In this document: one piece after another, positions 5,380-13,606 of the stretch
Layout of the letters: the number at the start of each line of letters is the position of its first letter
Position numbering within the stretch: the first letter of the stretch is position 1
NCBI GenBank assembly: GCA_016935335.1
Contig: JAFGRE010000003.1
Location: 1 to 41,115, forward strand
DNA from: Deltaproteobacteria bacterium
Lineage (GTDB): Bacteria > Desulfobacterota > WTBG01 > JAGOGO01
Direction: 5' to 3'
Length of the DNA stretch: 41,115 nucleotides
Translations under genes and position numbers: made by a program
Notes under the pieces: generated by a model
Databases searched by the model: none
What the model was told of the DNA's origin: nothing
What the model saw: only the letters and a program-made list of their open reading frames with translations

Positions 5380-7986
5380 TTAATCCGCACGAGAGGCGAA
5401 GCAGAGAGCCCGAGTTTTTTTTCTATCCATGACGACACAAAAGTCCTTGTGCTCATGAGGTATCTCGATCACATGCACCACGTCGGAAAGACTTTCGAAA
5501 TCCGGCGCCATAGATTTAAGCAAATTGGTTTTCTCCTTGAGAAAGGATTCATTGATGTAATTGTCTGCCATTCCTGGGTACACAGCCAAATAATAGATTT
5601 TGTCTTCCACCAGGTCCTGGAAAAAATGGGTTCCATACGAGACCTCAGGGACATAACCTTCGGTACTTTTGGCGACCTCAACAATGACAGCCGAAGCATC
5701 TATGTCCGCATAGCTTACATTGACACCCAAGTCGATGTTGTTACTTCCCCATCGCCCCGGGCCAATAAGGATATATCTTGCGTCTGCGGCTTCGATGGTT
5801 CCATTGACCTTCCCAATGGACCGGCCAATCTGATATTTTTTTTCTAAGGGGCACTCATGGTATCCGTCAGTGTCCACATAGACGATATAACGGACGTTAT
5901 CGACCAGTGCAGTAATAACGCAGTTGTTTGTTCGAAAGATAACACTTCCAGGATCAACATCCTCCGGGAAGATGACTTCGGCCTGGTCTCGAATTTCACT
6001 TAATGGTCTGCATTGAAGCAGATTAATCATTATGGTGCCTTTTTCATCTACATCAGCGACAAATTCGATATCTACAGGTATTCCATAGCCTTCCTCTAAC
6101 TTCCGTAATATCTTATCCATGACAGAAGCGAAGGATGTTTTCCTTACCAGGTTGTTAAACGTTAGGATTTTGCCTTCGGCAGCCTTTAGCTGCATCAGGC
6201 TGACGGGATCGGAGAGAGTACCCTCCTTGTGAATCGAGAAGAGGTACTGGTAGACAGGGAGTGTTTCTGTTCCCAAAGCTTCATCAAGCTCCACAGTCTT
6301 AAACTGATTTGAGGAGAAATCGATAAAATCAACATAATGTTGAGAATAATGTCGAATTTCAGATTCATAGAGAACGGGACGAAGCGTTGGGTGACTGAGG
6401 GCGATCATGCGGGGATAATCATTTCCGACACGGTCAACGGCTCTGGTACCCATTCCAAATACCAAGCGAAGAAGACCTTGATCCGTGTTAATGCGAGGTG
6501 ACCAGGGATTAAAGTTCCGGGAAAAACCGACGCCTGCAACCATAGGCATCAGTTTATTGCCTAATTCTCTCCCTTCGACTCGCATTACCAAAACCCCCAT
6601 TTGTTCATCGGAAAAGATCAATTTGTGCTTTATCCGATACAAGAGGGCATCGGGCTTTAAGACACTACTGTAAACAATCCTAATAGCATTCAAGAAATCA
6701 TGAAAGCGGTTTTCAAATTCACCTTGGTTGGGGCAAAAAACGCTGTCATACTTGCCTGCAAATGCGTATCCGAAATTATCCTCTAGCAGGCTCGATGAAC
6801 GGACTATAATGGGTTGGGTACCGAAATGATTTAATACTTCTTTAAGTTGTTCAAGGGTTTCAGGGCGAAAAAATCCGTTCAGGAAGGGTTCTCGCATTTT
6901 GGGGTATTCAGAAACGATGGTATCTCTGTCCTTGTACTGCTGACTTAAGAGGTAAAGCAGATCGTTGTCGAGCATGAATTCAAAGAAAACATCTGATCCG
7001 ATGTAATATGAATCGTGATCCTGCAGTATGTCTTTGAGTTCAGGCAAATCGTTTTGAGCAGCCAATTCGAGAATTTTGCGCGCCAAAAGCATGCCGGCGG
7101 ATTTCCCACCGATTCGCCCTGAACCGACGAGGCGGTTGTGAATTTTTTCGATATCCTCCAAGGTAAAATAGCGTTGCGCGATAGCAAAGTACTCCGATCG
7201 CTGACTGATAAGCGTTTTTATCAATTCCATGCGAAGGGCCTCGCAGTTTGCCGGAGAATAACATGACCGCTCGTGCAATCGTTTAAACAGGGTGTTAATT
7301 GTTTGAAGATAATCGGATTTCGGAGGGGGCTGCGAAGCCATTATCGTCGGGACCTGTTCGATGCCCTCCCATGGTCCTTCGGGGGCTTTCCCCACCGGAG
7401 AGAGAAGTGTAAAGGTCTGAAACATAGTGGGGGAATACCGGTCCCATACCCTCAGGGGCCGAATATATGACTGGCCGTCCTGCACATAGAAATCTATGAG
7501 TATCTGAGTAGTGTCCTTGATTCGTGCGATCGTCTGATTGTTATGACTTCCCCGGAGAATGCAAAAATAAGCGATCGTTTCGAGTTCGAACAACCGCGGA
7601 CAAACAGTACGGAAAAAATTGGCCAGCGATTCATCACTCCCCCACTGCCGAGCCAGAACTGACAGATTATCGAAGACATAATAAACCTTTTCCCCCGATG
7701 CTTCCATTACGTCCCTCACAAAGCGGTAGAAGTAATCGAAGCCCTTGTTTAAGTCGATAGAGACAACTCTGCAATGGGGGGATATCCCCGGAATATTAAA
7801 GGAGTCGAAATGTATATATATAATTTCAACCCCTTGCCTGCTTGCTTCTTCGACGAAGGGGCGGACGAGCCATGAATACTCAAGGGGGGTTGTAACCTGC
7901 CACACCACGTTGTCCCCCCAGCGCAATCCATCAAGCAGGGTATCAATAACGGGGACACCCGTATTGACTTTGACATCTTCTTTCAT
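5380..7986 (-). CDS. KaiC-like module fused to a PEP-synthase-type ATP-grasp (PEP/pyruvate-binding) domain
   Basis: An 868-residue multidomain protein. Residues about 8-190 resemble a KaiC/RecA fold (GVPVIDTLLDGLRWGDNVVW, then a Walker-B-like VYYVFDNLSVL at 101-111), but the P-loop is gone: TTPLEYSW stands where GxxxxGKT should be. Residues about 285-665 match the N-terminal nucleotide-binding domain of PEP synthase/pyruvate phosphate dikinase: IGGKSAG (292-298), IVRSSSLLED (394-403) with FAGKYDSVF, and IEFV...LLQCRP (640-661). The phosphohistidine swivel domain and PEP-binding TIM barrel are absent, so it cannot be a complete PEP synthase. A C-terminal region (about 680-868) with IGPGRWGS and SYGTHFFQDL is of unknown function. 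AAGGA lies 5 nt before the ATG. It is followed by the HAD gene and preceded by nrpR on the same strand. The same KaiC-like module recurs at 12518-13606. Function unknown; a signalling or phosphotransfer role is a guess. Confidence 0.8.
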   Translation of the reverse strand: MKEDVKVNTGVPVIDTLLDGLRWGDNVVWQVTTPLEYSWLVRPFVEEASRQGVEIIYIHFDSFNIPGISPHCRVVSIDLNKGFDYFYRFVRDVMEASGEKVYYVFDNLSVLARQWGSDESLANFFRTVCPRLFELETIAYFCILRGSHNNQTIARIKDTTQILIDFYVQDGQSYIRPLRVWDRYSPTMFQTFTLLSPVGKAPEGPWEGIEQVPTIMASQPPPKSDYLQTINTLFKRLHERSCYSPANCEALRMELIKTLISQRSEYFAIAQRYFTLEDIEKIHNRLVGSGRIGGKSAGMLLARKILELAAQNDLPELKDILQDHDSYYIGSDVFFEFMLDNDLLYLLSQQYKDRDTIVSEYPKMREPFLNGFFRPETLEQLKEVLNHFGTQPIIVRSSSLLEDNFGYAFAGKYDSVFCPNQGEFENRFHDFLNAIRIVYSSVLKPDALLYRIKHKLIFSDEQMGVLVMRVEGRELGNKLMPMVAGVGFSRNFNPWSPRINTDQGLLRLVFGMGTRAVDRVGNDYPRMIALSHPTLRPVLYESEIRHYSQHYVDFIDFSSNQFKTVELDEALGTETLPVYQYLFSIHKEGTLSDPVSLMQLKAAEGKILTFNNLVRKTSFASVMDKILRKLEEGYGIPVDIEFVADVDEKGTIMINLLQCRPLSEIRDQAEVIFPEDVDPGSVIFRTNNCVITALVDNVRYIVYVDTDGYHECPLEKKYQIGRSIGKVNGTIEAADARYILIGPGRWGSNNIDLGVNVSYADIDASAVIVEVAKSTEGYVPEVSYGTHFFQDLVEDKIYYLAVYPGMADNYINESFLKEKTNLLKSMAPDFESLSDVVHVIEIPHEHKDFCVVMDRKKTRALCFASRAD

Positions 7987-8038
7987 GGTGTTCCTTCCAT
8001 AAATAACAGTTAAAAATTAACGACGAAAAACTAACCAA

Positions 8039-8055
8039 CATCATTCGAGATGATG
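8039..8055. repeat. Small inverted repeat upstream of the 868-residue gene
   Basis: CATCAT-TCGAG-ATGATG forms a perfect 6-bp stem with a 5-nt loop in the 169-bp gap between nrpR and the KaiC/ATP-grasp gene. It lacks a T-run, so it is more likely a binding site or leader hairpin than a terminator, and it may be chance. Confidence 0.3.
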
Positions 8056-12496: not shown

Positions 12497-12517
12497 TTCC
12501 TTTTTCGTCGACGACCT

Positions 12518-13606
12518 TCAGAGTGTATCGCGTTTTGTCTTTTTGGGCTTAACTCGCATTGATTTGGCAGGGAGGGATACCCCGAGAATGAATGAATCTA
12601 GTGATTCACCAAAATAACGGGCGATCTCGATAAACAACTGAAGCGAGGGAAGACAAAGATTATTCTCGATTTGTGATAGTGCGCTGGGAGTGATACCCAA
12701 GTCGCGAGCCAATTCTATTTGGGTGATCTGTCTTTCTAAACGCAAGGCCCGGATTCTATCACCGATTTTGATTGATTCTTTAGGGACGGGGACAAAGCGC
12801 GATACTCTTCCAGGTCCCGCTGGGTGAGAGGGTTCGCTTTCTCCCCCATCTCTGTTCTTATCTAATTCTTCGGCGGGGCCAATGAAGTCTATCATGTTAT
12901 CGTGGAAAGAATAGTAATGTTTTTGACGCAATAGATCTGAGGGCCTTCCATCCATCTTCACAAAGCTGGCAGCGCAGGTTCTGTCTTTTTGGAAGCTCAG
13001 GCTTATCACCAGTTGAGTAATGTGGGTAACATGGGCCAAAAATGATTTTGAATGGACTTCCTTGACAATCGGCCAGTAGGCCAGTGCTTTCAGCTCAAAT
13101 AATTTGGGACAGGTATAAGTAAAAAAATGCAGGGTATCTCTTTCCCCCCAGATTTCCTGCATCCCCGTGAGGCTATCAAAAACATATTTGCACACGAGAG
13201 GTTCTTTAAACTCGCCCTGCAATTTACTTATGGTTGCTATAAATTCGCCCGGGTCTGCCAAGTCTTTTATGCAGCGTATCTGGGATAATGAAGCAAGCGA
13301 TTCATTTTCGTAAAAAGACTGGAAAAAGGTATCACTATGCCCCTTGCCGAAGGTAAAGGCATCGACAAGGATGAAGTTGCCTTCTTGGATGAGATGTTCA
13401 TACCGTTTGTAAATTTTATGAGGAGGGAAATCAAAACTTATATAAATGGTCTTACACCCTTGAGGTGTTTTTGTGGTCAAAAATCCCTCCAAGAAAAAAT
13501 CAAAGTACGCACCCGGCTCAACAACCCAGACGACATTGTCTCCGAGCAAAACTCCACCCATGAGTTTGTCTAAATAAGGGATGCCGCAGCTTATAAGATT
13601 TTGCAT
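12518..13606 (-). CDS. KaiC-like module (no Walker A) fused to an XRE helix-turn-helix
   Basis: A 362-residue protein with two parts. Residues about 1-240 form the same degenerate KaiC-like module as the 868-residue protein at 5380-7986. Shared landmarks are GIPYLDKLMGG, GDNVVW (22-27), a Walker-B-like YVFDSL (141-146) and TCPKLFELKALAYW against VCPRLFELETIAYF. No GxxxxGK[ST] loop is present (VEPGAYFDFF in its place), so ATP binding in the usual way is unlikely. Residues about 281-341 form a Cro/CI-type HTH (IGDRIRALRLERQITQIELARDLG, then ITPSALSQIENN). A charged linker (245-275) joins them and the C-terminus is basic. The gene is divergent from the glutamate synthase operon and convergent with gdhA, so it probably senses something and controls that operon. 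No characterised homologue is known to me. Confidence 0.8.
   Translation of the reverse strand: MQNLISCGIPYLDKLMGGVLLGDNVVWVVEPGAYFDFFLEGFLTTKTPQGCKTIYISFDFPPHKIYKRYEHLIQEGNFILVDAFTFGKGHSDTFFQSFYENESLASLSQIRCIKDLADPGEFIATISKLQGEFKEPLVCKYVFDSLTGMQEIWGERDTLHFFTYTCPKLFELKALAYWPIVKEVHSKSFLAHVTHITQLVISLSFQKDRTCAASFVKMDGRPSDLLRQKHYYSFHDNMIDFIGPAEELDKNRDGGESEPSHPAGPGRVSRFVPVPKESIKIGDRIRALRLERQITQIELARDLGITPSALSQIENNLCLPSLQLFIEIARYFGESLDSFILGVSLPAKSMRVKPKKTKRDTL

Follow-up and report, generated by a model that had tools for sequence, protein, structure and literature searches.

KaiC/RadA-like ATPases (PF06745; PH0284, SSO2452, FlaH and KaiC) are built on a RecA fold with a Walker-B-like strand and an N-terminal GxxxLD...GG entry. 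Signalling uses of the inactivated KaiC-like domains MEDS (PF14417) and DUF835 (PF05763), called iKaiC, are on record, chiefly from archaea, as are REC-PPDK proteins in Bacteroides and archaeal assemblies (PMC5847659). Here we analysed 41,115 nucleotides from a Deltaproteobacteria bacterium (GCA_016935335.1, JAFGRE010000003.1; the window), one entire contig of a 2.8-Mb draft genome whose nearest named relatives are metagenome assemblies labelled ‘Deltaproteobacteria’ or ‘Proteobacteria’. Two proteins of the window, P (W5, 868 aa) and X (W9, 362 aa), open with a common KaiC-like module without P-loop and stand among genes for nitrogen assimilation.

Fold, Walker-B-like strand and N-terminal entry are shared by the X and P modules and the KaiC/RadA-like ATPases; unlike the latter, the modules lack the P-loop, stay under the Pfam cut-off and carry XRE(-cupin) or PPDK-type outputs as fusion partners. 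They resemble MEDS and DUF835 as KaiC-like domains without ATPase features that serve signalling proteins, whereas the nitrogen-assimilation setting and the XRE and PPDK fusions are undescribed for that group (PMC5847659). P has the PPDK_N ATP-grasp and the ATP-site residues in common with phosphoenolpyruvate (PEP) synthase, PPDK and rifampin phosphotransferase, but it is devoid of the swivelling His domain and of the PEP domain, and its C-terminus is different. The ATP-grasp core and the C-terminal GPGRWG/GTHFF domain of REC-PPDK proteins are probably the same as in P; their sensor, however, is a receiver domain, and that of P the KaiC-like module. XRE-cupin regulators of the PuuR type carry an XRE helix-turn-helix (HTH) followed by a cupin, as do most X proteins, but in X the inactivated KaiC module is placed ahead of the HTH, and the X of the window is cupin-less. 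No KaiC-PPDK, XRE-KaiC-glutamate synthase or glutamate dehydrogenase (GDH)-PPDK system was found among the open-access papers searched. The statement of the initial annotation that no system of this form is described therefore stands for the fusions and for their link to glutamate, but not for iKaiC signalling modules and REC-PPDK proteins as such (PMC5847659).

The shared module and its outputs

Both open reading frames were confirmed at the coordinates first annotated and lie on the minus strand. The N-termini of X and P are homologous (BLASTP 78.6 bits, E 6e-20, 26% identity in a region spanning 213 columns). In profile-profile comparison the two modules matched each other at 99.9% (E 4.8e-36), and the true KaiC domains of relatives were matched at 86% by X (4.7e-6) and at 89% by P (2.2e-6). 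When 15 modules of both architectures were aligned, PF06745 recognized eight of them (best 7.8e-8); the X module of the window remained under the gathering cut-off (22.9 vs 26.6 bits), and the P module gave no PF06745 match. The AlphaFold2 model of X (pLDDT, the model confidence score, 86) had PH0284 (2dr3, E 6.5e-11) as its best Foldseek match in the PDB, and in the model of P, which is of moderate confidence (pLDDT 71.5), the module matched KaiC best (7s65, E 9e-9). Both modules are thus predicted to adopt the RecA/KaiC fold. Structure prediction had been set beforehand as a check on the proposal that the two N-termini are one KaiC-like module, and since both models match KaiC/RecA structures, unrelated folds are excluded at model level.

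The position of the former P-loop reads GDNVVWVVEPGAYFDFF in W9 (X) and GDNVVWQVTTPLEYSW in W5 (P), and in the alignment this segment differs strongly between P and X modules. To cover X proteins widely, 84,980 species genomes were scanned, which gave 371 X relatives; 80 of these were kept, and all X counts below refer to them. GxxxxGK[ST] occurred in none of the 77 X-type proteins anchored by the motif script, in which the N-terminal region was searched, nor by eye in the other three, and the aligned P modules are likewise without this Walker A sequence. The replacement of Walker A, as originally annotated, was thereby borne out, and so was the retention of GDNV-W, of the Walker-B-like FDSL/FDNL strand and of CPxLFELxxxAY. 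Among X proteins the Walker-B-like aspartate is mostly kept (FDSLTGMQ). In the alignment of 15 modules, 20 columns are invariant across both architectures; they include D13, D23, N24, W27, Y55, W153, C166, H185, Q198 and R221 (X numbering) and also cover GDNV-W, CP and AY. A DxFTxGKG motif is confined to X modules. On sequence and model grounds, the module is a predicted pseudo-ATPase with KaiC/RecA fold.

Membership in the MEDS family was considered and rejected: aligned by hhalign with 15 MEDS domains from the same phylum, the modules reached 1.3% and 9.0%, compared with 94% for KaiC vs MEDS as positive control. In the 15 modules neither DUF835 nor MEDS gave a Pfam match at E<=1, DUF835 having been compared at Pfam level only.

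The output domains are those first annotated, an XRE DNA-binding domain in X and a PEP-synthase-type ATP-grasp in P (Table 1). At least 410 aa were counted in 69 of the 80 X homologues, and those scanned terminate in a cupin; from the short form of the group to which the window belongs, it has been lost. A 624-aa X (L112:4338-6212(+)) has about 150 extra residues past the cupin and is directly followed by GDH and by a P core without KaiC-like module. In P, residues K295, R396, E641, Q658 and R660 are invariant, and we take these to be the residues that form the ATP site in the PEP-synthase family. Neither the phosphohistidine domain (PF00391) nor the PEP/pyruvate domain (PF02896) had a match in P at E<=1. 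In the C-terminal domain of about 190 residues the motifs GPGRWG and GTHFF are invariant, and the folds nearest to the P core are rifampin phosphotransferase and HpeI.

Genomic neighbourhood of X and P

The record titles of the 80 X proteins name Deltaproteobacteria/Desulfobacterales, Nitrospirae, Spirochaetes, Poribacteria, Armatimonadetes and further groups. Within the host's phylum (395 genomes) the module was present in 149 genomes, and the high-scoring matches fell into two length classes, X mostly of ~360-510 aa and P mostly of ~860-1190 aa.

Glutamate synthase (GOGAT), GDH, NrpR or glutamine synthetase was encoded in 65 of the 80 X loci (GOGAT in 62, NrpR in 26), among them records of Desulfobacterota, Nitrospirota, Spirochaetota, Poribacteria and Armatimonadetes, and in 16 of 20 P loci (fetched loci of ~15 kb each). 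Glutamate-node genes lay within 1.5 kb of X in 56/80 loci, and of other KaiC, RadA and MEDS genes in 0/35. The commonest neighbours of X are an FMN (flavin mononucleotide)-GltB-type gene, nrpR and NuoEFG-like genes, and X is usually divergent from or co-linear with the adjacent glutamate-synthase genes; P typically adjoins GDH. The nitrogen assimilation block seen by the initial annotation between and around the two window proteins, with nrpR, GDH and glutamate-synthase genes, is present, and its neighbourhood is conserved in several phyla. This placement points to a control module for nitrogen assimilation that has not been described before.

P cores whose N-terminus has no assigned domain also adjoin GDH (L068, L073). 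In another such locus (L061:9013-12228(-)), the P core ends in a C-terminal nucleotidyltransferase (PF01909 2.4e-9) and has GDH and a 1199-aa GDH-like protein as neighbours. Parabacteroides distasonis (NZ_OY725790.1, L225:2714-5668(+)) encodes, divergently from gdhA, a ‘PEP/pyruvate-binding’ protein of 984 aa that has a receiver-like domain and shares the ATP-grasp core and the C-terminal motifs of P. Altogether, P seems to be a signalling enzyme linked to GDH whose sensors are exchangeable, the KaiC-like module being one of them. In two further loci (L155, ~10409-12931; L159, ~3275-5746) the neighbour of the P gene resembles GlnD by eye; P therefore occurs by classical nitrogen-signalling genes, too.

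PII is nearly universal and was detected in 13 of 14 control genomes. No match to PII (PF00543) came from the host, from its family or from the ten genomes of the class that follow next. GlnD (PF08335) was without a match in the host, in the two members of its family and in almost the entire class, some of these assemblies being incomplete. PII/GlnD control thus went undetected in the host and across most of the class; it acts on the same metabolic node as X and P and has no sequence relation to them.

The GGYAA-N4-TTRCC dyad

NrpR is a 2-oxoglutarate-responsive repressor, and the nrpR gene product of the window has both the HTH_12 and the NRD domain (Table 1). The operator of archaeal NrpR is GGAA-N6-TTCC (PMC2723118). 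A different dyad of likewise 14 bp, GGYAA-N4-TTRCC, marks the promoters of nrpR, gltB and X. In the fetched loci 51 sites were found, vs four for the mirrored pattern. The dyad is located at 24 of 31 X promoters in Nitrospirota, where the mirrored pattern occurs at one of 31, and at none of the 49 X promoters outside Nitrospirota. It also occurs at nrpR starts without an X match among the matches listed (L160-L162, L167), which makes NrpR a likelier binder than X. An X operator is disfavoured for this reason and by the 49 promoters without dyad. GGYAA-N4-TTRCC is probably the bacterial NrpR operator, as judged from its positions. In Nitrospirota, dyads of the GGTAACCGTTTACC type overlap the X start region, e.g. 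at L119:2837, L147:9978 and L114:9965.

The one exact copy in the window, GGCAAGCAGTTGCC, lies just downstream of a promoter-like sequence for the FMN-GltB gene, TTGACA (9351-9356)-N17-TAGGGT (9374-9379). When one mismatch or none was allowed, the window contained nine sites vs 4.6 expected; one of these, GGTAGAGGCTTGCC, is placed in the intergenic region between X and glutamate synthase.

Table 1 Features of the window (positions in the 41,115-nt contig)
Feature	Position	Strand	Basis or remark
P: inactivated-KaiC module, PPDK-type ATP-grasp, C-terminal domain without name	5380..7986	-	868 aa
P C-terminal domain, residues 676-868	5383..5961	-	GPGRWG, GTHFFQDL, invariant H787; no Pfam match
P PPDK_N ATP-grasp, residues 291-675	5962..7116	-	PPDK_N 1.4e-45
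P module without P-loop, residues 1-190	7417..7986	-	alignment, structure match, profile-profile
P Walker-B-like YVFDNLS, residues 103-109	7660..7680	-	alignment
P former P-loop site, residues 29-39 (WQVTTPLEYSW)	7870..7902	-	GDNVVW strand directly upstream
nrpR (HTH_12 + NRD1_2)	8156..9151	-	PF08461 1.4e-17; PF01995 2.3e-79
Dyad GGCAAGCAGTTGCC, probable NrpR operator (predicted)	9394..9407	.	between nrpR and FMN-GltB gene
FMN-binding glutamate-synthase-type protein W7	9470..11113	+	open reading frame (ORF) listed from 9392; ATG 9470 likely
Glutamate dehydrogenase	11249..12496	+	sequence; orthologues adjoin P cores
X: inactivated-KaiC module, XRE HTH, no cupin	12518..13606	-	362 aa
X XRE/HTH_3 DNA-binding domain, residues 281-343	12578..12766	-	HTH_3 6e-13
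X module without P-loop, residues 1-245	12872..13606	-	alignment, structure match, profile-profile
X Walker-B-like YVFDSLTG, residues 141-148	13163..13186	-	alignment
X former P-loop site, residues 27-37 (WVVEPGAYFDF)	13496..13528	-	
One-mismatch dyad copy GGTAGAGGCTTGCC	13948..13961	.	near chance
Glutamate synthase, glutaminase-domain subunit	14109..15164	+	divergent from X
Glutamate synthase, FMN/synthase-domain subunit with ferredoxin part	15167..16675	+	
Glutamate synthase, third subunit	16620..18884	+	ORF bounds per listing
Glutamine synthetase	18991..20340	+	

Elsewhere in the window, a 554-aa sigma-70 factor near RpoD is encoded at 517-2181(-); with 394 vs 555 bits it is well under the RpoD equivalog cut-off. 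Two three-gene sets in opposite orientations (32646-36396 and 36873-40556) resemble, by eye, the FAD (flavin adenine dinucleotide), Fe-S and molybdopterin subunits of xanthine-dehydrogenase-type enzymes.

Possible roles of the module

We propose that the inactivated KaiC domain (residues 1-190 in P, 1-245 in X) may take in nitrogen or energy status and assist assembly, without acting as a motor. In X it would set the DNA binding of the XRE domain and so control transcription of the adjacent glutamate-synthase genes. In P it would gate a phosphotransferase of the ATP-grasp type that serves GDH or the glutamate pool specifically, and phosphoryl transfer would involve the C-terminal GPGRWG/GTHFF domain. 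NrpR would impose 2-oxoglutarate-dependent repression on the cluster and, in Nitrospirota, also on the X gene. For this proposal as a whole, we consider the chances of its being right or wrong to be balanced.

Several observations weigh against it. X and P occurred together in 12 genomes vs 13.8 expected, among the matches listed for the 395 genomes of the phylum. P cores without the KaiC-like module adjoin GDH as well, so that the GDH link does not require the module. Palindromic motif searches for an X-specific operator in four groups returned only AT-rich, -35-like or coding signals. The dyad is enriched locally only and shows no excess over the mirror-image control genome-wide, and for that reason its assignment rests on position. 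Finally, many other X- or P-bearing genomes carry PII, which restricts the proposal of a PII replacement to the host clade.

The initial annotation had taken the two proteins for a pair, and this part did not survive. In a tree of the modules, in which branches are long and only the split was used, X and P stand on opposite sides of one branch with 100/100 support. A recent local duplication in the window was rejected since the modules part at this single deep branch, and an obligate two-protein system was rejected since co-occurrence is at chance level. Both results suggest that X and P have long used the module independently of each other; their joint presence in the window is not the usual case.

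Among the alternatives, P might serve metabolism instead of regulation, as a phosphotransferase whose substrate is a small molecule in the glutamate pathway and whose activity is merely tuned by the KaiC-like module. The PPDK_N domain with complete ATP-site residues and the small-molecule phosphotransferases among the nearest folds would suit such an enzyme, but the phosphohistidine and PEP/pyruvate domains are missing, and elsewhere the same core bears a receiver-like domain or a nucleotidyltransferase, which are typical of signalling. We hold this possibility to be unlikely, yet a serious one.

The module could also serve for oligomerisation alone, as a scaffold in the form of a KaiC-type ring or dimer platform without small-molecule ligand, and the signal would then come from the cupin of X or from the ATP-grasp substrate or adenylates in P. 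Rings are indeed formed by KaiC and RecA domains, both proteins contain ligand-like domains (cupin, ATP-grasp) outside the module, and conservation between X and P does not extend to the former nucleotide loop. On the other hand, 20 invariant residues over two architectures, together with the X-only DxFTxGKG, resemble a pocket more than a bare interface, and since the window X has lost its cupin, the module is its sole candidate input. A scaffold without ligand thus seems rather doubtful to us.

That the module still binds nucleotide through other residues, as a working or regulated ATP sensor, would agree with the retained Walker-B-like aspartate and RecA core, but is quite improbable given that the P-loop Lys and Ser/Thr are missing in every X examined and that the P segment is quite different. 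Hitchhiking of unrelated genes in one lineage can practically be dismissed: gene order does vary among groups, and about one-fifth of loci are without such neighbours, partly through short contigs, but the association recurs in several phyla with differing gene orders and orientations, for the P core in Bacteroidota as well.

Returning to the input module for nitrogen or energy status, a broader form of the proposal is that the P-loop-less KaiC module might be a general sensor (of 2-oxoglutarate, glutamine or adenylates) in PII-less bacteria, working through two outputs, XRE-based regulation of glutamate synthase and covalent control of GDH by an ATP-grasp enzyme; we offer this tentatively and think it rather unlikely. 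Control of the glutamate node is usually framed in terms of PII, GlnD/GlnE, NtrC, GltC or NrpR. Here a previously unnamed dead-KaiC module occupies this node in two forms, X and P, which are named candidates for nitrogen sensing in such bacteria. Furthermore, glutamate dehydrogenase becomes tied to a PPDK-type family that is large and uncharacterised and that has a receiver-domain member in a gut Bacteroidota species. If the proposal is true, a family of GDH-dedicated signalling enzymes would extend from relatives of sulfate reducers to gut Bacteroidota.

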